A stretch of 64,000 nt of DNA from Streptomyces sp. CBMA156 (GTDB lineage Bacteria; Actinomycetota; Actinomycetes; Streptomycetales; Streptomycetaceae): assembly GCF_014596515.1 (NCBI RefSeq), contig NZ_MSJQ01000062.1:1-64000 (forward strand). The letters are read 5' to 3'. Each line of letters begins with the position of its first letter. The first letter of the stretch is position 1. This document shows positions 2,771-23,334 of this stretch, one piece after another. Both the position numbers and the translations under genes were made by a program. The notes below the pieces were generated by a model. The model was not told where the DNA came from, searched no databases, and saw nothing but the letters and a program-made list of their open reading frames with translations.

Positions 2771-5700
2771 TTAGGGGAGTGCCGAAGATGGGGTGCGTGG
2801 GAGGGCTGTTGTCGGGGCGGTCATGAGCGGGCAGACAGGCTCGGAGGATTCGGGTAGGTACGTGTATTTCTCTTTGGAGGTGAGGTCACGGGCGACGGCC
2901 GCACAGATCGTACTGATCGCGGTGTCCGGTGGGGTGTAGAACCAGAGCCGCGCGGTGGCATCGTCGTTCCCGGCGGCGAGGGTGCTGTTGTCCGATCCGA
3001 ACGCGACCGACGTCACAGGTCCGCGGCCGGTGAAGGTGGCGAGGTTCTTGTGGCCAGCCCTTTCCCACAGCCGCACGAAGCCGTCTTCGCCGCCGGTGGC
3101 GAGGGTCTGGCTATCCGGGCTGAACGCCACCGAGGTCACGGCACTGGTAGGTCCCTTGGGGCCGGTGAGGTCAGTGGTCTCGCCGGAGGCACGGTCCCAC
3201 AGCCGCACGAAGCCGTCCCTGCCGCCGGTGGCGAGGGTCTGGCTATCCGGGCTGAACGCCACCGAGGTCACGGCACTGGTAGGTCCCTTGGGGCCGGTGA
3301 GGTCAGTGGTCTCGCCGGAGGCTCGGTCCCACAGCCGCACGAAGCCGTCCTTGCCGCCGGTGGCGAGGGTCTGGCTATCCGGGCTGAACGCCACCGAGGT
3401 CACGTCATCGGTAAGTCCGTTGGGGCCGGTGAGGTCAGTGGTCTCGCCGGTGGCTGGGTCCCATCGACGGACTCTGCCGACACTGCTGGCGGTGGCGAGG
3501 GTGTGCTTGTCCGGCCTGAACATCACCGACTCCACCGACTCCGCCAACTTGCCGTTGACGGTGGCGGGGGTGAGGGTGGCAGTGCTCTTGCCGGTGGTCG
3601 CATCCCATAGCCGAACGCTGCCGTCCTTGCTGGCGGTGGCGAGGGTTTTCCCGTCCGGACTGAACGCCACCGACCGCACCGAACTGGAGTGGCCGGTGAA
3701 GGTGGTGACGGCTTTGATCGCGTCGGTGTCCCACAGCCGGACGCTGCCGTCAGAGCCACCGGTGGCGAGGGTTTTCCCGTCCGGACTGAACGCCACCGAC
3801 CGTACGTTATCGGTGTGGCTGGCGACGGTGGCCGTGGCCGTGGCGGTCGTGCCGGCGGTGGTGTCCCAGAACCGCACGATGCCGTCATCACAGCCGATGG
3901 CGAGGGTCTTCCCGTCCGGGCTGAATGCGACCGACCGTTCGACACCCGTGTAGCCGGTGAAGGTAGCGCGGCCGGCGCCGGTAGCCGTGTCCCACAACTG
4001 CACGAAGCCGTTTGCGCCGCTGGTGGCGAGGGTTTTCCCGTCCGGGCTGAACGCCACCGACCACACGACATCTCTCTGGCCGGTGAGAGTGATCCGTCCC
4101 GTGGTCCTATCCCACAACTGCACGGGGCCGCGGTCGCCACCGATGGCGAGGGTTTTCCCGTCCGGGCTGAATGCCATCGACCACACGACACTGGCCTCGC
4201 TGGGGGGAGCTGCGGTGGTGGCCTTGCGGGTGGCTGCGTCCCACAACTGAGCTCGGCCGTTATGGCCGCCTGTGGCGAGGGTGCTTCCGTCCGGGCTGAA
4301 CACCACCGAACTCGTGGTACCCGCGTCGGCGGTGAGGGTCTCGATCGTGTCGGCGGTAGGGTCCCACAACCGCAGGGCACCTTGCTTGCTGACGGTGGCG
4401 ACGGTGTGCTTGTCCGGGCTGAACGCCGCCGATGTCGCAGCGAGGTCGCCCGGGGGACCAGAGAGGCCGCCGACGGCTTTCCCCGTTGCCACGTTCCACA
4501 GCCGCACGGTGCTGCCGCTGCTGCCGGTGACCAGGGTCTTCCCGTCCGGGCTGAACGCCACCGAGTCCACACCACCGATACTGGCGACAGCGAGGCGGTG
4601 ACGCAAGGGAATGCGTGCGCTGTCACTGAGGGCGGTGGCGGCCTCCGAGGTGGGACTGGTGCGGTAGGCGGCGACCGCCAGGAGGGCGGCGAGCTCGGGA
4701 TTGCTGACCGTCAAGGAGACGGACTGGGCGGCGAGTTGCCGGGACTGCGCGACCTGCTGGGCTGTGACTGCCCTCTGCCGGGTGGTGATCTCCGTCTGCC
4801 ACTTCCAGAGGGCGATTCCCGAGGCGATCAGGGCGAGGGCGAGGGTGGTGGCCAGGATGGTGTTGAGGCGTCGGCCGCGCCGGCGTCCGGCGGTGAGGAA
4901 GTTGTCAAGGTCGGTGGTGAGTCGGCGGCGCTGGCGGGACCAGTCGGTGCCTTCGGCGAGGAGGGTGCCGGTGGGCAGGTCCCGGGGGTTGCGGTGTTCC
5001 TTCCAGCGGTCGTACTGGTCGCGGGCACGGCGGAGCCAGTCGAGGAAGCGCAGGTCCTCCTCGACCCAGTCGCGCAGGGTGTGCCAGTCGCGGATGAGCG
5101 CGTCGTGGACCAGTTCGGCCACCGCGGTCCCCTCCACGTCCTGTGGGCCGTCCGGCCGTGCGTGGCCGTGGAGCCGGTGGGTGGTGACGATGCGGTGCCG
5201 GGAGAGGACCGCCAGGACCTTGTCCACGGCCCGCAGCGCGTCGGGGGTGTCGTCGTCGGCGGCGAGTTGGCGCAGGTCGCTGATCGGGAGCTGCTGGCGC
5301 GCGGCCGGGATGTTCAGAGACGGGTCGGCGGGGCGGACCAGGGCGGTGAGGATCCTGCGGGCGATGTCCCGTTGGCCCTGGTCGAGTTCACTCAGGGCGT
5401 TTTCGCACCAGTCGGTGAGGGCGCCGGTGACGGCGCCGATGCGGCGGTAGGCGTCGCGGGTGAGACGCCCGTCGTGCTCCAGGCGGCGTTCCCATAGTCG
5501 GGTGAGGGCGACTTCGAGCAGGGGCAGCGCGGTGACGGGCGCGCCACCGGTGGCAGCGGTGCCGGGGTTCAGGGCCAGGACGTCGGTGATGATCTGCTCG
5601 GCGAGGCCCGGTTCGAAGGGCGTGTCGAGGTCGTGGGCGGGGCCGGTGACGATCGCGTCGAGGTCGGCGGGGCTCAGGGTGGCGGGGACGTTGAGGACGC

Positions 5701-14693: not shown

Positions 14694-14840
14694 TCAGTCG
14701 TTGTTGGTGGTCGGGGTGCGGCCGAGTTCGCGGCCGCGCATGCGGTAGGACTCGCCTTTGAGGGAGTGGACCTCGGCGTGGTGGACGAGTCTGTCGATCA
14801 TGGCGGCGGCGACGGTCTCGTCGCCGAAGACCTGGCCCCA
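14694..14840 (-). pseudogene. istB: istB 3' fragment (IS21 family)
   Basis: Forty-eight codons read WGQVFGDETVAAAMIDRLVH, then HAEVHSLKGESYRM, the C-terminal part of IstB-type AAA+ helper proteins of IS21 elements, with a normal stop. The missing preceding segment, ending SNKPFGK, is found on the same strand at 18350-18451. Codon K at 18350 and codon W at 14840 would be adjacent in an intact gene, so the 3.5 kb between them is an insertion. Confidence 0.85.
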
Positions 14841-14854
14841 CTCATCTGGGGCTG

Positions 14855-14865
14855 GCACATGTTCC
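14855..14865 (+). repeat. Left 11-bp inverted repeat of the recombinase element
   Basis: GCACATGTTCC, 14 bases inside the left istB junction. The reverse complement is at 18337-18347. Confidence 0.7.
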
Positions 14866-14982
14866 TTTTCGTGGATCGCCGCTGCCACCGGCCCGTATCC
14901 ATCGTCCGTGGTCCTCGTTGGTCTTCGTGGTGGTGCCCGGATTCTCCAGGTGTTGCCTTGATCGGTCAGGTGCGAGGAAGGT

Positions 14983-16053
14983 GTGCCGGTGACAGCCCAG
15001 CTGCGGGTGGTCCAAGGTGGTGCCGTTCTGCTGGAGCCGGTCACCGCCGATCCGTGGGAGTTTCAGGCCGAGTGCGTTGAGGCGTTCGTCGGATCGTGGC
15101 GCGCCCGCGGGTTCAGCCCGGTGACTGTCGAGAACGACATCGGGCTGCTGGAGCGAACGCTCACCGCGCTGGGCCGGCCGGCGTGGGACGTCACCCCCGA
15201 AGACATCGACCGCGTCGTCGGTGACCTGGCCCTTGCCGGGCGGGCCGTATCGACCCGCCGCGATTACGTGCAGATCTTCAAGGGCTTCCACCGGTTCCTG
15301 CAGGTCCGCAAGGCTATCGAGATCGAGGCGGGGTTCGGCGTCCGCCTGGTCTGCCCGGTCGATGAGTTCAACGCGTCCCGGCATGTCGGGGACGACTCTC
15401 CGGCCCAGCTGCCGCCGCCGACTCCCGAGCGGGTGGCGGAGTTCTTCGACTTTCTCAAGGCCCGGATGCCGACTGCCCGCAAGTACGCACCCGCCGCCCG
15501 GGACTACGCAATGTTCCGAACCCTCTATCACGCCGGCCTGCGCTCGGAAGAGGCATCGCTTCTGGACCGCCCGGACGTCCACTTCACGCGGGGCCCGTTC
15601 GGCAAGCTTCACGTGCGGTTCGGCAAGGGCGCCCGCACCTCCGGCCCCAGGCCGCGCTGGGTGCCGATACTGGACGGGCTCGACCTCGTCCTGCACTGGT
15701 TCCTCGACGACGTCCGCGGCAAGTTCCCCGACTCGCCGGTGCTGTTCGCGGACGAGTCCGGCGGCATTCTGCACCGCGGGACGATCCGCAACCGCTTGCG
15801 CTATCTGATGGAGCTTGAAGGCCGCCCGGCGACCGATCGGTTCAGCCCGCATGCATTGCGGCGGGCCTGCGCAACCCACAACTACGAGCGCGGCGTGGAC
15901 TTGGTGGCAATCCAGCAACTCCTTGGTCACTGGACAGTCAGCTCGACGATGAGATATGTCCGTCCGTCCGCGACGTTCATCGAGGATGCCTATCGTCGCG
16001 CGGTGACCACGACGCTTGGCGAGCTCACCGCCGAGGGGGACAGCTCCGCATGA
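14983..16053 (+). CDS. Tyrosine recombinase/integrase
   Basis: A 356-aa phage-integrase-family recombinase. An N-terminal SAM-like arm (ECVEAFVGSWRARGFSPVT) is followed by the catalytic domain with the expected residues: Arg in YHAGLRSEEASLL, His-x-x-Arg in PHALRRACATH, then LLGHWTVSSTMRYV with the His and the nucleophile Tyr. GTG 14983 follows GAGGAAG closely. The stop overlaps the start of the HTH gene (ATGA at 16050). It probably catalyses movement of the surrounding 3.5-kb element. Confidence 0.9.
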   Translation: MPVTAQLRVVQGGAVLLEPVTADPWEFQAECVEAFVGSWRARGFSPVTVENDIGLLERTLTALGRPAWDVTPEDIDRVVGDLALAGRAVSTRRDYVQIFKGFHRFLQVRKAIEIEAGFGVRLVCPVDEFNASRHVGDDSPAQLPPPTPERVAEFFDFLKARMPTARKYAPAARDYAMFRTLYHAGLRSEEASLLDRPDVHFTRGPFGKLHVRFGKGARTSGPRPRWVPILDGLDLVLHWFLDDVRGKFPDSPVLFADESGGILHRGTIRNRLRYLMELEGRPATDRFSPHALRRACATHNYERGVDLVAIQQLLGHWTVSSTMRYVRPSATFIEDAYRRAVTTTLGELTAEGDSSA

Positions 16054-16094
16054 AGATCCGATGGCGCCTGCGGATGGCCGCCGCCTAGCGTGAG

Positions 16095-16364
16095 GTGTGG
16101 ACCGGCACTCAGCTGCAGCGACTTCTGGCCGAACGAGCCGGGCTGCAGATGTCCTCCGCGTCTGTGTCCGCGCTGTTCAGCAAGGAGCCCTCCCAGGTGA
16201 AGATGCCCACCCTGATCGCGTTGTGCACCGCGTTGGAATGCACCCCCAACGACCTGTTCGAGGTCGACACCACCCCCGTCGAGCAGCCAGCTGTCCCGCC
16301 GCGACCGGTCGCCGACCTGCCGAAGGCGGCCTCCGCCCGGGGCCGTTCGATGTCTCCCCTGTGA
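16095..16364 (+). CDS. Small HTH protein, 5' end cut by an amber codon
   Basis: An XRE/Cro-type DNA-binding protein (LQRLLAERAGLQMSSASVSA; TLIALCTALECTPNDLFEVD). The natural start appears to be ATG 16050, overlapping the integrase stop; it reads MKIRWRLRMAAA and then TAG at 16086-16088, followed in the same frame by REVWTGTQLQRLL. The TAG looks like a one-base change from CAG. Translation could restart at GTG 16095 after GTGAGG, giving 89 aa with the HTH intact. It lies between two recombinase genes and may control or assist them. Confidence 0.7.
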   Translation: MWTGTQLQRLLAERAGLQMSSASVSALFSKEPSQVKMPTLIALCTALECTPNDLFEVDTTPVEQPAVPPRPVADLPKAASARGRSMSPL

Positions 16365-16385
16365 CCCGGAAACGAGGGCGGCATC

Positions 16386-17861
16386 GTGGGCGTCAAACAG
16401 AGCGACTGCACCGGCTGCGGAGCCCCGGTCGGCTTCATCGACCGGCACTACTGCTGCCGCTGCACTGCCTCGCAGAAGGAGGCAGCGGCCCGGGCCGCGT
16501 GTCCCCGCTGTGGCCGGCAACGCGTGCTCCAGGCGGACACCGGCCGGTGCATCACCTGCTCACGCCCCCGGCAGGGCAAGCAGCCGCCCCGGGTCTGCGA
16601 ACAGTGCGGCAGAGTACGGAAACACACAGGCCTGGGACTGTGCTCAGCCTGCTGGCAACGTCACCCCGACCGGCCCTTCGTCCGAGCCGAGCACCTCACC
16701 GCCGAACTTGACCAACCCCCGGACTGGCTGCGGGACTTCGCCGCCGATCTCGCTGCCAAATACTCCGTCGGCCGAGCCTGCACGATGATCACTTCCTTGG
16801 GGCGGCTCCTCCTGGACGGCCAGCCCAACCATCCCCAGGCCGTGCTCGAACGCTCCCGTCGGCCAGGACGCTCGATGGGCACTCTCGCCCGCGCGCTGGA
16901 GACTTTCTTCACCATGCACGGCCTGGCCATGGTCACCGATCAGGCCGAGCGACTCGCGGCCGGCCGCCGCCGACGTCGAATCGACGCCGTCCCCCAGGAC
17001 CTGCGGCCACCGGTGCAGGCAATCGCCGACTTCATGATGCACTCGCGCGAGCGAGCACGGCGGGCCGGAACCCGACCCCGCAGCGATGCGACCGTGGAGG
17101 CGGCGCTGGCCATCGTGCGTGACCTCGCTCGGTTCCTCGCAGGTCATCGAGGCAAGCACGACTGGGCACTGACCGACGTCCACGACATCGAGGCCTACCT
17201 CACCAACCAGCCCAAGGCCCGAAAGCGCCGACTGGTCGTGCTCGGGCAGTTCTTCCGCTTCGCCCGGTCCCGGAAGATCGTCCTCGTCGATCCCGCCCGC
17301 GGTCTGACCTCCCGAGGACCGAGCGGTTTCACCGGGGCAACGCTGACACTTGATCAGCAACGTGCGCTGTTCCGCCGATGGACCACCGCCCCGGATATCC
17401 ATCCGCACGAGGCCCTGCTCGGCGTCCTTGCGTTGTTGCACGGCGTCTCAAGTCGCGAGGTCAAGATGCTCCAGACCGGCGATCTCGACCTGAGGGCGAG
17501 GACCGCCCGACTCGGCGACCGTCCGCATCCGGTGCCCTTGGACCCGGCGTCGTGGAGCGTGGTCGAACGCTGTCTGGCCCACCGAGGGGCTCAACGAACC
17601 AACAACCCGCACGTGATGGTCACCCGCCAAACGAAGTCCGGCCGAGGGCCGGCGTCCACCGCCTATGTCAGCCACGTCCTCGACGACTGCGGCTTCCCGC
17701 CCCGCATGATCCGCTGCACTCGCCTGCTCGACCTGGTCAACACGATGGACCCCAAGCTCGTTGCCGCCGCCTTCGGCATGGGCCCCGAAGCCACCATGAT
17801 CTATCTCGCTGACCACATCGACGAGACCCGCTTGTCGCAGTGGGAGACCCCGAGGACCTGA
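16386..17861 (+). CDS. Zinc-finger, recombinase-like protein
   Basis: A 491-aa protein. The first ~110 residues hold several Cys-x-x-Cys pairs (CTGCGAPVG; CCRCTA; CPRCGR; CEQCGR; CSACW), probably zinc-binding. The rest folds like a tyrosine recombinase, with an arm domain and a catalytic-like domain (HGVSSREVKMLQTGDLDLR; IRCTRLLDLVNTM; AFGMGPEATMIYLADHI). The usual His-x-x-Arg box is altered, so catalytic activity is uncertain. It starts at GTG 16386, 21 bp after the HTH gene, in one operon. It is likely the second transposition protein of the element. Confidence 0.75.
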   Translation: MGVKQSDCTGCGAPVGFIDRHYCCRCTASQKEAAARAACPRCGRQRVLQADTGRCITCSRPRQGKQPPRVCEQCGRVRKHTGLGLCSACWQRHPDRPFVRAEHLTAELDQPPDWLRDFAADLAAKYSVGRACTMITSLGRLLLDGQPNHPQAVLERSRRPGRSMGTLARALETFFTMHGLAMVTDQAERLAAGRRRRRIDAVPQDLRPPVQAIADFMMHSRERARRAGTRPRSDATVEAALAIVRDLARFLAGHRGKHDWALTDVHDIEAYLTNQPKARKRRLVVLGQFFRFARSRKIVLVDPARGLTSRGPSGFTGATLTLDQQRALFRRWTTAPDIHPHEALLGVLALLHGVSSREVKMLQTGDLDLRARTARLGDRPHPVPLDPASWSVVERCLAHRGAQRTNNPHVMVTRQTKSGRGPASTAYVSHVLDDCGFPPRMIRCTRLLDLVNTMDPKLVAAAFGMGPEATMIYLADHIDETRLSQWETPRT

Positions 17862-17868
17862 CGTCTCA

Positions 17869-18291
17869 TCAGAGTTGATAGGGGTAGAGGGCGATCTTCT
17901 CTCGCTCGACATAGAGCTCGACCCAGGTGCCGCCGACACCCTCCGGCAGTGGAGCGGCCAGGTCCAGCAGGATCTGCGTGCCGTCCAAGTCGAACAGGGC
18001 AGCACCGTCCTCCGTGGAGTTCAGCCGTCCCCGCAGGACGACGCAGTGCCCGCCCTGCCGGACCTCGGGCCCGGAACCGGCAGCTGGCTTGGCGTTCCGC
18101 CCCCAGGCGATGTCTTCGTCGACAGTCCACTCCACGTGGTACTCGCCCGGCCCAGCAGCGGGATCCCCGCACCAGCGGACCGCGGTGTGCCCGAAGGCCG
18201 TCTTGACCTGAGCCAGCAAGGGGCTCCCCGGGAATTGTGCGATCTTCTCTATCTCAACCAGCATCGTTCGATCATGCAGCACCGGCGTCAT
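17869..18291 (-). CDS. Hypothetical protein inside the recombinase element
   Basis: A ~140-aa soluble protein (MLVEIEKIAQFPGSPLLAQV; GEYHVEWTVDEDIAWGRNA; LLDLAAPLPEGVGGTWVELY), opposite in direction to the recombinase genes and 7 bp from the end of the last one. The start is either ATG 18291 or ATG 18264; neither has a strong ribosome site. Family not recognised. It may be a cargo gene of the element, since it lies wholly inside the istB junctions. Confidence 0.6.
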   Translation of the reverse strand: MTPVLHDRTMLVEIEKIAQFPGSPLLAQVKTAFGHTAVRWCGDPAAGPGEYHVEWTVDEDIAWGRNAKPAAGSGPEVRQGGHCVVLRGRLNSTEDGAALFDLDGTQILLDLAAPLPEGVGGTWVELYVEREKIALYPYQL

Positions 18292-18336
18292 CGATGGAAC
18301 CTGCCCCGTTTCGGCGCCACCTGGCACAGGTTCGCC

Positions 18337-18347
18337 GGAACATGTGC
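18337..18347 (-). repeat. Right 11-bp inverted repeat of the recombinase element
   Basis: GGAACATGTGC, the exact reverse complement of the repeat at 14855-14865, two bases inside the right istB junction. Confidence 0.7.
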
Positions 18348-18349
18348 GC

Positions 18350-18451
18350 TTTCCCGAAGGGCTTGTTCGAGGTGACGATCACGCTGGCTCTCTCGTAGCG
18401 GTTCGAGATCAGCTGGAAGAACAGGTTCGCGGCCTCGGACTCGAAGGGGAT
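18350..18451 (-). pseudogene. istB: istB internal fragment
   Basis: Thirty-four codons read IPFESEAANLFFQLISNRYE then RASVIVTSNKPFGK, the region just after the Walker B motif of IstB proteins. It continues directly into the fragment at 14694-14840 once the recombinase element is removed. Upstream istB sequence (Walker A and B) is absent: at 18452 the match ends and different DNA, possibly an intron remnant, begins. Confidence 0.82.
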
Positions 18452-18454
18452 GTG

Positions 18455-18565
18455 TTGGGTCGGGGACGGGACGCCGTGCACCCTCTCGGGTGTCGGTTTT
18501 CCCGTCCCCGCCCGCCGAACCGGACGTGCCCGTTGGCCGAGCATCCGGCTCTCCACGTGATCCGG
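18455..18565 (-). ncRNA. Possible group II intron 3' remnant (domain V-like hairpin)
   Basis: Read on the minus strand, GAGCCGGATGC and CACGTCCGGTTC pair into a hairpin with the size and sequence of group II intron domain V. A GC-rich tail follows (gggacgggaaaacc ... gtcccgtccccgac) that could form the domain VI/3' end. It abuts the istB fragment exactly where istB homology starts. No intron 5' region or reverse transcriptase is visible in the window. Recognition is by pattern only; a covariance-model search would decide. Confidence 0.45.
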
Positions 18566-18722: not shown

Positions 18723-21418
18723 CTACAGGCTGGTCGTCTCCTCCTGCGCGGTGTTCCCGTTCTCGTCGGCGTCTGGGGCGTCTTCGGTGTTCTCTGCGGT
18801 GCGGCGGTAGTAGGGGTGGGTGGTGTCCATCCTGCGGGCGAGGTGGAGGGGGGTGGGGGTGCTTTGGCGGACGTCGGAGGTGATGCCCTGGTTGGTCAGG
18901 ACGGCGGCGACGCCTCCGATGAGGTCGCAGTTGGCGTCAGCGCTCTGGGCGATGACGGTGAACCGGGTGGCGGTGTGGGCGTAGCCGTTCTTGCCCTGGC
19001 TGCCGCTGTCGAAGCGTGTCTCGTCCTTGCCGAAGCGGCCGGCGGGGCCGGCGGCCCAGGTGCGGGGGACGTTGACGAGCAGGAGGTCGGGGTAGGTGTG
19101 GGTGCCGTCGTCGGTGGCGAGTCGGAAGAGGCTGTTGGTGGTGTCGGTGGCGCGCCAGGTGCCGTCGCCGGTGCGCATGTGGGCTCCGGTGGGGCGGCCG
19201 ATGCGTTCCAGGTCGCCGATGACGCGGACGGTGGCCAGGGGGCGTTGGGCGCGGGGGAGGCTGTGGCCGGGCAGCCAGGACGCCGGGCGGGGCATGCCGG
19301 GGGGCGGGTCCTGGCCCAGGGCTTCGTCGGTGAGGCCGGCCCAGATGTACTCGGCGGAGTCACCGTCGAGGTAGAGCACTGCAGGGGCCGCTTCGGGCAG
19401 TTGCGTGCGGGTGGCGATGAGGGCCTGTTCGACGATGTCCGCGGCGGCGCGGGCCTGGAGTGTCTCGTCTCCAGTGGTGGGATAGCTGCTGACGTCCCAA
19501 GCGAGGTCGGTGGCGTGCAGGGCGGTGGTGGCCGGGCTGAGGGGCAGCCACTGCCCGGCCTGTGGGCTGTAGGCCCAGATCTGCCAGGAGTCGTCCTTCC
19601 CTCCGGTGGGGCGCATCGCGGTGAGGGTGGCGGTGATCGGTGCCGGTTCGGTGGTGCGGCGCCTGCCGGGTGTGTGGCTCCTGGCGTGGCGGCGGACGTG
19701 GATGCCGATGTGCCACCAGTTCTCGAGCGGCAGTTTGCCGAACGCGGCGCCCAGGCGGTGGTCGGTGGCGCCGACGCCGCTGAGGATCTCGCGCAGCACG
19801 TTCGCGGTCGAGCTGTCGAGGCCGCTCTGGCGGGAGGCGACTTTCTTCGCCCGGTAGTTCTCGTTGTAGGGCTTGCCCTCCCGGGTGTGGGTGGGGATCG
19901 GTGGCGGAGCCTGCTTGATGTACTGGGAGGTCGCTGAGAGGCGCGCGAGGGCCTGCTTGGAGGGCCACTTGCCGTCCTCGGCCTCGGCCTTCTCACGGGC
20001 TTCGACGCTCGGGTACCAGCGCTCGGGGTCCCAGTCGGTCTCGCAGATCGCCGCGACGCGCGTGTCCTCGCGGGTGTAAGGGGCGAGCATCTGGGCCAGG
20101 TCCCGCTCGCGCTCGGCGCTGGTGCTCGGTCCGTGGCCGAGGGCGCCGGCCTTGTCGTGGAGGAAGACGACCTCGATACGCCCGCCAGCTGCGGGTTCGG
20201 CGACGCCTTCGACGGCCTTCCAGTCCTCGCCCAGGCCCCACTGGGCGGCGATCGCGGCCTTCACCCGGGCGCGGACCTCGTCGGTGCTCCACAGGACGGG
20301 AACGAGGAGGGTACCCACGCCGGCGGCGTCCAGAGCGGCGGGGATCCGTTCGAGGGGGATCGGTCTGCTGATGCGTGAGCCGCTCTCGGTGGGTGGCACC
20401 TTGATGCCGGGGACCTCGATGAACACGGGGCTGCGGTGGCTGTACTTCTCGCACCTGGTGTCGATGGCCTCCTCGACGCGGCGGAAGAACTCCATGCCGT
20501 GTCCGCGGCCCAGGCCGGGGGTGCGGACGCTGGCCGGGGCGACGGCCCAGACCGGCCCGAGGGCGGTACCGGCGAGGGCGTCGTCGGCGAGGTGCTCGGG
20601 GAAGGACGGCACGTTCGAGCTCAGGCGGGGTAGGGTGGCCAGGCGGCGGCTGGCGGCAACCGCAGGGACGTTCAGACGGCGCTTCCACGGCGGGCCGTCG
20701 GTGGCTGCGGCGACGACGAGCGGCTGGTCGGGGTTGGCCAGCAGGACGGTGGCGACACCCTTCCAGGAGGTGGCGAGGAGGGTGGTGGCGGCGTTCACGG
20801 TCAGCGCGTGGCGCCGGGAGTGCCCGCTGGCGGCGGTGCCGATGGTGATACGGGGCAGCAGGTGGCGCACGATGCCCTTACGGTCGGGTTCGGCGGGCAA
20901 CTCGTGGCCGACCGCGGCCAGGCGGCCGTCGGTGCACAGGGCGAAGCGGACAGGGGTGCCGTTGTTGCGGGGCCAGTCTAGGGCGGCGAGTTCCTCGGCC
21001 AGGCGCCAGCGGGAAAGTTCGCCCGGCCACCAGCCGCGCGAGCGCTTGCCGGCGCGCGGTGGCTGGGGCAGGACGGCGGGCCGGGGACCACGGCCTCGGC
21101 CCAGTAGCTGAAGACGTCGCGCCGGTTCTCGGTGCTGATCGGCGCAGCGCACAGGAGTTCGTAGCAGCCGTCGTTCCACTGCCAGCGCGCCCAGGTGCCC
21201 GCAGCCGCACGCAGGACGCACTCCAGTGCCCGGTAGGGCGGTTGCACGTCCAGGCCGGAACCGACGGTGCGCTTGTACTCCTGCGCAAGCTCCACGGCCA
21301 GGTCCATGACGGGGGCGTCGGGCCGGTAGGCGATCACCTTCCCCAGGTCGGCAGGGGCGGTGCGGAACTGCAGCAGGCGGGCCTGCTTGCGGGCGACGCT
21401 GTCCAGCGGGCGGCTCAT
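18723..21418 (-). pseudogene. pPIWI-RE module protein with a frameshift
   Basis: A prokaryotic Argonaute/PIWI-like protein of the pPIWI-RE group, expected to bind nucleic-acid guides in a defence island. The N-terminal ~114 residues (MSRPLDSVARKQARLLQFRT; APVMDLAVELAQEYKRTVGS) lie in one frame from ATG 21418. The remaining ~780 residues lie in another, entered near 21075 (AVLPQPPRAGKRSRGWWPGE). One added base there would restore a protein of ~895 aa. The C-terminal part shows the RNase H-like segments APAVLYLDGDSAEYIWAGL and LATVRVIGDLERIGRP. The start overlaps the upstream helicase stop (ATGA). It may be a true mutation or an assembly indel. Confidence 0.65.
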
Positions 21419-23334
21419 GCGTACTCTCCCAGGTAGGCGTCAAAGCCCGCGCGCAGCGCGGGCAGCAGGTGCTGGGCGTGGGCGTACTCGGCGATTTCCT
21501 CGATGGTGTGGCCGTAGCAGCTGCCGAGCTGGGCGAGGTCGTCCTGCGGGGACTGCTCAAGCAGGCCCCGGACCAGGGTGGGCAGGTCGGATCCCCAGGT
21601 GGGGTCGTGGAAGGCGCCGTCGATGAAGTGGAGCTCGACGTGGGTCTGCCCGCGGCGTCCGCGGCCAGCCAACTGGACGCTCTGTCCCAGGAGGGTGGCG
21701 ACGAGTTCGTACTTCAGCTCGTCGGGCAGGGCGGAGAAGCGCTTGGGCGCGTTGAGGTTGAGGCGCAGGTGCGCGTCGGCAGTCGCGCGGGCCCGGGCCA
21801 GGACGGCCGCGGCGTCGCCGCCGGGGACGGTGTCGCACCAGGCCCGGGCGGCGACACTGGCCGCCAGCACCGCCGGGCCGTCGGCCGGCATGACCGGCCG
21901 CACGCCCATGGCGATGAGGGTGATGGCCGACACGGCGACGCCCTCGAACACGGTCAGCACGTTCAGGCCCCGCTCGGTGCGCGGCAGCGGCGAGATGAGC
22001 ACTTCGCCGTCGAGGTCGGCCAGTTCCGCGAAACGGTCCCGGGTGAGCTGGCCGATCGCGTCGCAGACCGGCGGCAGAGAGGGATCCGGGGTGTCCGCGA
22101 CGGCGACGTAGATCCGCAGCCGCCGTCCGAGGGCGAGCGCGGTGTCGTACAGGGTCTGGGCGAAAAGGCGGGCCTGCCGGTAGGAGTTGACGGTGATCAG
22201 GGCCCGCGCGCGATGCCGGGTGCGCTCATCCGCAGTCAGCCGGGCCAGGTCGCGCACCAGACCCGGCGCGTAGCCGGCGGCCAGCGAAACGACCCGCTGG
22301 TCGCGTTCGCGGTAGGGCGTGCTGCCGACGGCCAGGAGCTTCCCGTCGGCGATGGGGGTGCTGTTGAAGATGGTCAGGTCGCCCGCAAGGGTGTCGGGCA
22401 TGGCCCAGTCGGGGCGGGCGATCAGATGGGTGCGTGCCGCGCCCGGCATGAAGCCGGTGGCGGACATGCCCAGGACGGTACGCTGGCGGCCGCTCAGGGC
22501 GAGGGAGACGATGCTGCCGAGGAACTGTGTCTCGGTATGGGGGTCGGCGCGCAGCACCTCCATCTTCAAACTCGCGTGGGCGCCGGGGTCGTCCAGCCCC
22601 TCGAAGCGGAACCCGCCCAGCTGGCGGCCCAGCGGGCCGAACGGGACGACGGTACCGGCGCCTTGGTGGCCGATCGCGTCGGCGAGTTTGGAGGCGGCCT
22701 CGATGCCGTGCCCGGCGAGCTCGCCGGCCCGGTCCGTCAGGTCGAACATCGTGTGGACGATGGCCGTCAGCCACGTCTTCATCATCGGCGCGTGCAGGAC
22801 GCCCGCGGTGGCCTCGATGCGCGTGACTGCCCGCCCCGGCTCCAGCCCGCCGGGTGCGCGCTGCACCGGCACCGTGGACGCAGCAGGTACTTCGTCGGCC
22901 TCACCCTCGGCGGCGGCGTAGGCGGGCAGCGCGGCGCAGACGATCTCCCGCAGTTCCTCCTTGAGTGGGGCCAACTGCCACTCTCCGCCCTCGTCGATCG
23001 TGAGCATCCGCTCCAGCACACCCGGGACGGGCAGCAGCCGATCCGGCAGCACGGCAGAGGAAGGCCGCTCGCCCGGCCGGGTGGCCACACGCGGGAGCAA
23101 GGCTTGCAGGCAGTCGGCCTGCTCGGCGGTGGCCGCGGCCTCGGGATCCGCCCCGATCAGGTCCTCCAGCAGGTGCCGGTCCCATTGGTGGGGCTGATAC
23201 CAGCGCTTGCGATCCTGCAGGACCTGCCGGGTCCGGCGCGGGTCCTGCCCGCGGGCCATGGCCCGCGCCTGGGCGACCTCGGTGCAGACCTCCTCGCCGG
23301 CCACCAGGTCGAGCAGCTGCTCGGCCAGGAACAC
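21415..23334 (-). CDS. pPIWI-RE island helicase-like protein, 5'-truncated
   Basis: A 639-aa protein overlapping the pPIWI gene by ATGA. Later SF2 helicase elements are visible: VLGMSATGFMPG (motif III region), ALITVNSYRQARLFAQTLYD, LISPLPRTERGLNVLT, and QSVQLAGRGRRGQTHVELHF (motif VI region). No Walker A (GKT) or DExH motif is found, and the frame stays open upstream of GTG 23334. This suggests that the N-terminal part carrying the ATP-binding motifs was lost. In known pPIWI-RE islands a DinG-type helicase and a nuclease accompany the PIWI protein. Without motifs I and II it should be inactive. Confidence 0.6.
   Translation of the reverse strand: MFLAEQLLDLVAGEEVCTEVAQARAMARGQDPRRTRQVLQDRKRWYQPHQWDRHLLEDLIGADPEAAATAEQADCLQALLPRVATRPGERPSSAVLPDRLLPVPGVLERMLTIDEGGEWQLAPLKEELREIVCAALPAYAAAEGEADEVPAASTVPVQRAPGGLEPGRAVTRIEATAGVLHAPMMKTWLTAIVHTMFDLTDRAGELAGHGIEAASKLADAIGHQGAGTVVPFGPLGRQLGGFRFEGLDDPGAHASLKMEVLRADPHTETQFLGSIVSLALSGRQRTVLGMSATGFMPGAARTHLIARPDWAMPDTLAGDLTIFNSTPIADGKLLAVGSTPYRERDQRVVSLAAGYAPGLVRDLARLTADERTRHRARALITVNSYRQARLFAQTLYDTALALGRRLRIYVAVADTPDPSLPPVCDAIGQLTRDRFAELADLDGEVLISPLPRTERGLNVLTVFEGVAVSAITLIAMGVRPVMPADGPAVLAASVAARAWCDTVPGGDAAAVLARARATADAHLRLNLNAPKRFSALPDELKYELVATLLGQSVQLAGRGRRGQTHVELHFIDGAFHDPTWGSDLPTLVRGLLEQSPQDDLAQLGSCYGHTIEEIAEYAHAQHLLPALRAGFDAYLGEYA

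Follow-up and report, generated by a model that had tools for sequence, protein, structure and literature searches.

Structure of the interrupted istB region

Within the 64-kb stretch of DNA analysed here (the window), junction pairs and profile matches show that an istB gene on the minus strand is interrupted by an element of 3,509 bp (Table 1). The original prediction was of an istB frame split by about 3.5 kb and, in agreement with this, the Pfam IstB profile matches both flanks (positions 165–198 at 18344–18451 and positions 197–235 at 14697–14852). ORFs and profile matches also bear out the predicted three-gene operon with an opposing cargo gene: the genes for a tyrosine recombinase (Int1), an HTH protein and a recombinase-like zinc-ribbon protein run one way, and the cargo ORF runs the other.

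Table 1. Coordinates of the element and its istB flanks in the window. A slash within a protein motif marks the point of insertion.
Feature	Position	Strand	Description	Basis
istB C-terminal part, target flank, attL side	14697–14843	-	restored frame G/EWGQVFGDE	PF01695 positions 197–235
Whole element	14844–18352	+	3,509 bp, ATCTGGGG... to ...GCGCTTT	conserved junctions at 28 distinct two-ended sites; empty sites
Left end	14844–14865	+	ATCTGGGGCTG plus GCACATGTTCC	A at base 1 and TGG at bases 4–6 in 28/28 two-ended sites
Int1	14983–16053	+	tyrosine recombinase, complete R-K-HxxR-H-Y set	PF00589 E 6.5e-21; alignment
HTH protein	16050–16364	+	Cro/C1 type, XRE-type, HTH_26; ATGA overlap with Int1; amber 16086–16088; possible restart GTG 16095	PF13443 E 1.1e-8
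Zinc-ribbon integrase-fold partner	16386–17861	+	491 aa (relatives about 540 aa)	alignment and profiles of full-length relatives
Cargo ORF	17869–18327	-	152 aa, no family match	relatives in L033, L034, L037, L110
Right end	18324–18352	+	inverted pair of GCACNNGTTC half-sites (18324–18333, 18338–18347), then GCTTT	CGCTTT in 28/28 two-ended sites; 38 right ends listed
istB middle part, target flank, attR side	18353–18451	-	truncated upstream by group II intron end	PF01695 positions 165–198

The borders of the element, 14843/14844 and 18352/18353, are set by 28 junction pairs and two empty sites. The break had been placed between codons K (18350) and W (14840), and although the split gene stands, this border is three bases off on each side; because the right border falls after 18350–18352, the K codon belongs to the element as its terminal TTT, which makes G/E-W, rather than K/W, the target codons. 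The 11-bp inverted repeat reported near both ends was recovered as two exact and mutually inverted copies of GCACATGTTCC (14855–14865 and 18337–18347), where 0.04 are expected in the window and none of 100 shuffles reaches two; no further copy of the right-end 15-mer was found in the same genome. Left ends across the relatives start with A[T/A][C/A]TGG. The left six bases vary, whereas the right six are CGCTTT at all 28 two-ended sites. The right-end palindrome was considered as an RNA hairpin or terminator and this was rejected; each GCACNNGTTC half varies at its two middle positions, and full matching of the ten pairs is seen in only 4 of 38 rows, so that a protein-binding inverted repeat is likelier. 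Two contigs consist of the element end to end, one of them exactly (L039) and the other with two bases before it and one after (L106).

The copy in the window is probably damaged, judging from two lesions. Its HTH gene has an in-frame amber codon (CAG to TAG at 16086–16088) where all nine relatives listed, from a set of ten, have CAG, and its zinc-ribbon gene has a 162-bp in-frame deletion, removing 54 codons present in relatives, between repeated zinc-ribbon segments. Mobility may therefore be lost in this copy, unless a restart at 16095 rescues translation. The istB gene is itself broken twice, since the 3' end of a group II intron (18454–18553, minus strand, RF00029) abuts it at 18451, which is where the istB fragment stops. 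An intron end of the same kind, judged by eye, lies in the istB flank of L034, and together the two indicate that a third kind of element strikes istB near Walker B. The window also contains pPIWI_RE defence genes at 18723–23334 (minus strand), with matches to PprPIWI and PprDinG.

In Int1, R187, K215, H290 and R293 are invariant and H316 and Y325 nearly so. The zinc-ribbon protein is integrase-like and lacks a conserved catalytic set. Aligned relatives of the latter have many conserved cysteines together with integrase-like segments, and full-length members match PF02899 above cut-off (26.6 bits, L046) and the phrog_1 integrase profile (E 1.5e-8, L035). Neither the first catalytic arginine nor the histidine of HxxR is conserved, and we therefore take the protein to be non-catalytic. 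Its AlphaFold model is poor (mean pLDDT 59.6) and a Foldseek search with this model returned nothing significant (best E 0.34, with an integron integrase second at E 1.2), so the fold assignment rests on sequence profiles; against solved structures the zinc-ribbon profile gave weak zinc-ribbon resemblances only.

The region between the zinc-ribbon gene and the right end differs among relatives. Rhodococcus, mycobacterial and a few other elements end 58–88 bases past the zinc-ribbon match, and most Streptomyces elements have one or two small ORFs of varied kind there. These include a barstar gene (PF01337 in L036, scanned; similar-looking genes in L102, L105 and L116), DUF6228 (L099, scanned), a 2-phosphosulpholactate phosphatase (L101) and, by annotation, a GNAT gene (L048), and still other elements have cargo of no known family. 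PADLOC reported no defence-gene match for the window cargo or for the barstar-like cargo. Small variable genes in this position would be passengers.

Relatives and their insertion sites

At E <= 0.001, searches with the zinc-ribbon protein gave matches, many of which are fragments, in 20 of 70 same-genus genomes; at E <= 1e-60 they did so in 17 of 249 family genomes and in 5 of 394 class genomes, the latter all within the same family. A scan of named genomes gave 12 loci, all in Streptomyces, and there were 48 matching plasmid records (22 from Streptomyces, 17 from Rhodococcus, 5 from Mycobacterium, 2 from Mycolicibacterium and 2 others); the gene order Int1–HTH–zinc ribbon recurs in many of the matched records. 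A phage origin was also considered and set aside, with no match in 50,697 phage records and no confirmed relative (two short patterns) among IMG/VR contigs.

Element ends were searched for in 52 rows (51 distinct places, L115 repeating L088) from Streptomycetaceae, Rhodococcus and mycobacteria, with L041 left out. This gave 35 left ends, including one placed by hand (L045, missed by the search pattern), and 38 right ends, with both present in 29 rows that represent 28 distinct sites. The 23 rows lacking one or both ends are L037–L040, L042–L044, L052, L054, L089, L091–L093, L095, L098, L103, L106, L111–L114, L116 and L117; L044 has a left end, next to a flank not recognisable as istB.

Joining the flanks restores an ORF at every one of the 28 two-ended sites, 24 of them in istB and four in IS256-type transposase genes. 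All 24 istB insertions, the window included, are at the same codon and antisense to istB. Within TSNxxx/xW, the insertion point comes after the codon preceding E/R/G/D and ahead of the next W or F, and it is the same in very different IstB proteins (TSNKPFG/EWG, TSNREPA/EWL, TTNVGIA/DWA and SSNLHPS/GFD); at one site (L048) only a short istB stretch is left on one side. The four IS256-type insertions are all in the sense orientation and sit at GE/GAKFW or GE/SAKYW, with one branch at GE/GAKFW, and one IS256-type end each is present in L093 and L095. A PLD-like stretch forms the right flank of L091 and L092 (PF13091 E 0.0011, below cut-off), and a distant branch (L054-type, 37% identity) has its left border, the only one seen for it, immediately past the Walker-B region in an AAA gene. 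Members of this branch (hits H31–H40) often lie close to where linear replicons end; in G432 C1 and C2, for instance, the contig start is 7,244 bases away. The suggestion of a distinct IS-targeting family is supported by the common istB codon and ends at 24 sites and by uninterrupted istB genes that match both flanks. The IS256-type, PLD-like (two) and AAA (one branch) flanks show that istB is not the sole target.

In a tree of Int1 (36 rows) the target labels cluster, requiring 7 changes compared with a mean of 14.4 when shuffled and with none of 200 shuffles as low, a statistic that is inflated by near-copies. The IS256-, PLD- and AAA-inserted rows need one change each, and several deep forks are open.

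We saw no direct repeat or target duplication at the 28 sites; identity in the same register is 2.86 of 12 bases compared with 2.95 for re-paired partners, and the longest shared word is 3.5 bases compared with 4.0 in shuffles. A core sequence common to both borders, the ICE/IME criterion, is likewise absent from the 28 two-ended sites. The element keeps its own ends, and adds and removes nothing at the target.

Empty sites and evidence of movement

Uninterrupted counterparts of filled sites were found for several members. Removal of the element from an M. intracellulare plasmid (L050) leaves a sequence that runs through an intact IS256-type gene and is identical to M. kansasii pMK12478 at 3,220 of 3,220 bases. 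The joined flanks of L046 match a Rhodococcus plasmid at 96.4% overall, with no difference in the 39 bases to the left and 12 bases to the right of the join. The check for empty istB sites that accompanied the original prediction was also positive for the window, with one full uninterrupted 246-bp match to its joined flanks in 9 of 70 same-genus genomes (88–95% identity) and full-length uninterrupted matches in seven plasmid records.

The left border in the window is unusual. The 14 bases adjoining the element (14830–14843) differ from all 16 of the nearest istB genes when read across the join, and the flank beyond agrees well; the same 14 bases make up the left flank in L042, whose istB is more distant. 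This mismatch of about 14 bases is not explained by simple insertion into such an istB gene. It may reflect an istB allele missing from the sample or a short tract of recombination; we have no other explanation. Carry-over of flanking DNA with the left end, which these 14 bases suggested, was considered and rejected, as it is not seen in the two exact filled/empty pairs.

In Streptomyces strain V4I2 the element is present twice, in identical form (3,663 of 3,663 bp), in separate istB genes; when aligned, the flanks of these genes agree at only 268 of 490 bases and 167 of 281 bases. Such identity between copies within a strain is evidence of recent movement, as read from the sequences. In the plasmids of L050 and L094, 1,000 of 1,000 flanking bases are identical on each side, and the elements, inserted at the same base, have 2,645 of 3,177 aligned bases in common (83%); two different elements thus occupy one base, through either separate insertion or replacement.

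An alternative explanation is that the elements spread solely by homologous recombination between istB genes, or between whole IS21 or plasmid backbones, with the recombinases as relics. It draws on istB being multi-copy and conserved, on the damage to the window copy and on the odd mosaic beside its left end. We consider it very unlikely, because istB genes that differ greatly, and also an unrelated gene of the IS256 type, contain elements with the same ends, because the identical V4I2 copies lie in such dissimilar flanks, and because Int1 reads as at least 300 aa in 35 of 47 rows, some of the shorter ones being start misreads. The elements form a real family that inserts precisely, and relatives in soil bacteria and mycobacteria act alike. 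With a complete catalytic set of its own and precise, site-specific insertion with empty sites, the element has what is generally expected of a tyrosine-recombinase transposon, and we regard it as very probably a transposon of this kind with a fixed target.

Comparison with known elements and a possible mechanism

Tyrosine-recombinase transposons are tabulated in PMC10214605 as ICE/IMEs, SEs, GInts, RITs and Tn554. Membership of the Tn554/SE group, as a divergent form, would account for recombinase-like proteins with a small DNA-binding protein and for a target spacer on the left and a donor spacer on the right; the general anatomy and the asymmetry, with target bases on the left and element-borne bases on the right, are indeed the same as PMC10214605 describes for that group. 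In SEs and Tn554, however, 6 bp from the former donor flank travel to the right border of the new site, and here that border is constant. There is no DUF6262 protein (which we use as a presumed stand-in for TnpC) in the trio, the HTH protein gives no alignment with a neighbouring DUF6262 protein, the zinc-ribbon profile matches a long Tn554-like recombinase with a probability of only 0.1, and just one trio protein has a complete catalytic set. We therefore judge such membership to be improbable.

The individual resemblances vary. SEs, described in PMC10214605 as strand-biased circularizing integrative elements with a 6-bp footprint as in Tn554, share recombinase-related proteins with small partners, inverted terminal motifs, few targets and target bases kept at attL. 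Compared by description, they differ in their core of intA-tfp-intB-srap with both Int proteins catalytic, as against Int–HTH–zinc ribbon with one catalytic Int, in being reported from Gammaproteobacteria alone and in the 6-bp former-site footprint at attR, as against actinomycete hosts, a constant right end and zinc ribbons. Tn554 and actinobacterial Tn554-like elements are likewise site-specific tyrosine-recombinase transposons, and the latter are found in genes of the same kinds (istB in L047; in L051 the IS256-type gene, next to the trio). In Tn554, TnpA and TnpB are both recombinases, accompanied by TnpC and a 6-bp footprint, and no similarity is detectable for the second and third proteins. 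Such Tn554-like elements adjoin the trio element at L047 7699–12300 and L051 7475–11983, with a recombinase pair and, in L047, a DUF6262 protein; a second break in the L047 istB falls within Walker A.

That the element is a RIT or a GInt is more improbable still, even though an operon of several recombinase-related proteins with a small DNA-binding protein is suggestive of either. According to PMC10214605 and PMC5385486, RITs have three catalytic recombinases, and GInts have three integrases plus GinD and imperfect direct repeats of 10–17 nt; here there is one catalytic protein and no repeat above shuffles. Compared by description, GInts share an integrase-fold protein without catalytic residues (GinC) and cargo between the operon and a conserved 3' end, but their cargo is 2.5–70 kb as opposed to none to about 1 kb. 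RITs, also compared by description, are similar in size (about 3.5 kb, few genes), and one type is reported inside a transposase gene in PMC3414803; they differ in their three catalytic recombinases, and their mobility is not shown.

The tyrosine-recombinase transposon is a known kind of element, and as far as we have checked the gene set, insertion signature and choice of target have not been described: the known classes are not described with this combination, and the open-access papers searched on istB/IS21 targets and transposase-gene insertion contain no description of the element. There is about an even chance that the family constitutes a separate class, with Int, an XRE-type HTH protein and a zinc-ribbon partner, inserting with no core homology, duplication or footprint, with branches each adapted to conserved codons of a different transposition gene (istB, IS256-type, possibly TniB/TnsC-like AAA) and with single swap-in genes such as barstar-type immunity proteins.

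Beyond site-specific tyrosine-recombinase transposition, we infer the mechanism from the sequences. Strand exchange between the target and a circular or transient form would be the work of Int1, and the zinc-ribbon integrase-fold protein, lacking the catalytic set, may help to recognise the target or the ends. The HTH protein could bind the GCACNNGTTC half-sites, one on the left and the inverted pair on the right, serving as a repressor or as an architectural or directionality factor. CGCTTT is retained at every right end and the target's bases at every left border; strand exchange is therefore probably biased to one strand order, leaving the spacer of the element unreplaced each time. Insertion into transposition genes may offer many dispensable and widely shared targets that themselves travel on plasmids; with conserved codons of other transposons as landing sites, targets can be found across genera, while the transposition genes of other elements are broken. 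The natural filled/empty pairs, constant right end and single catalyst make strand exchange between non-matching spacers directly testable.

Two further trios were observed. A Mycobacterium plasmid (L052 1672–5527) has another Int–HTH–large protein trio adjoining a member of the element family, and a second trio of Int, HTH and zinc-ribbon partner (L118 3538–6631), a remote homologue with the same gene order, lies on another contig of the genome containing the window; its third protein matches the zinc-ribbon profile with a probability of 97.5 (E 6e-12).
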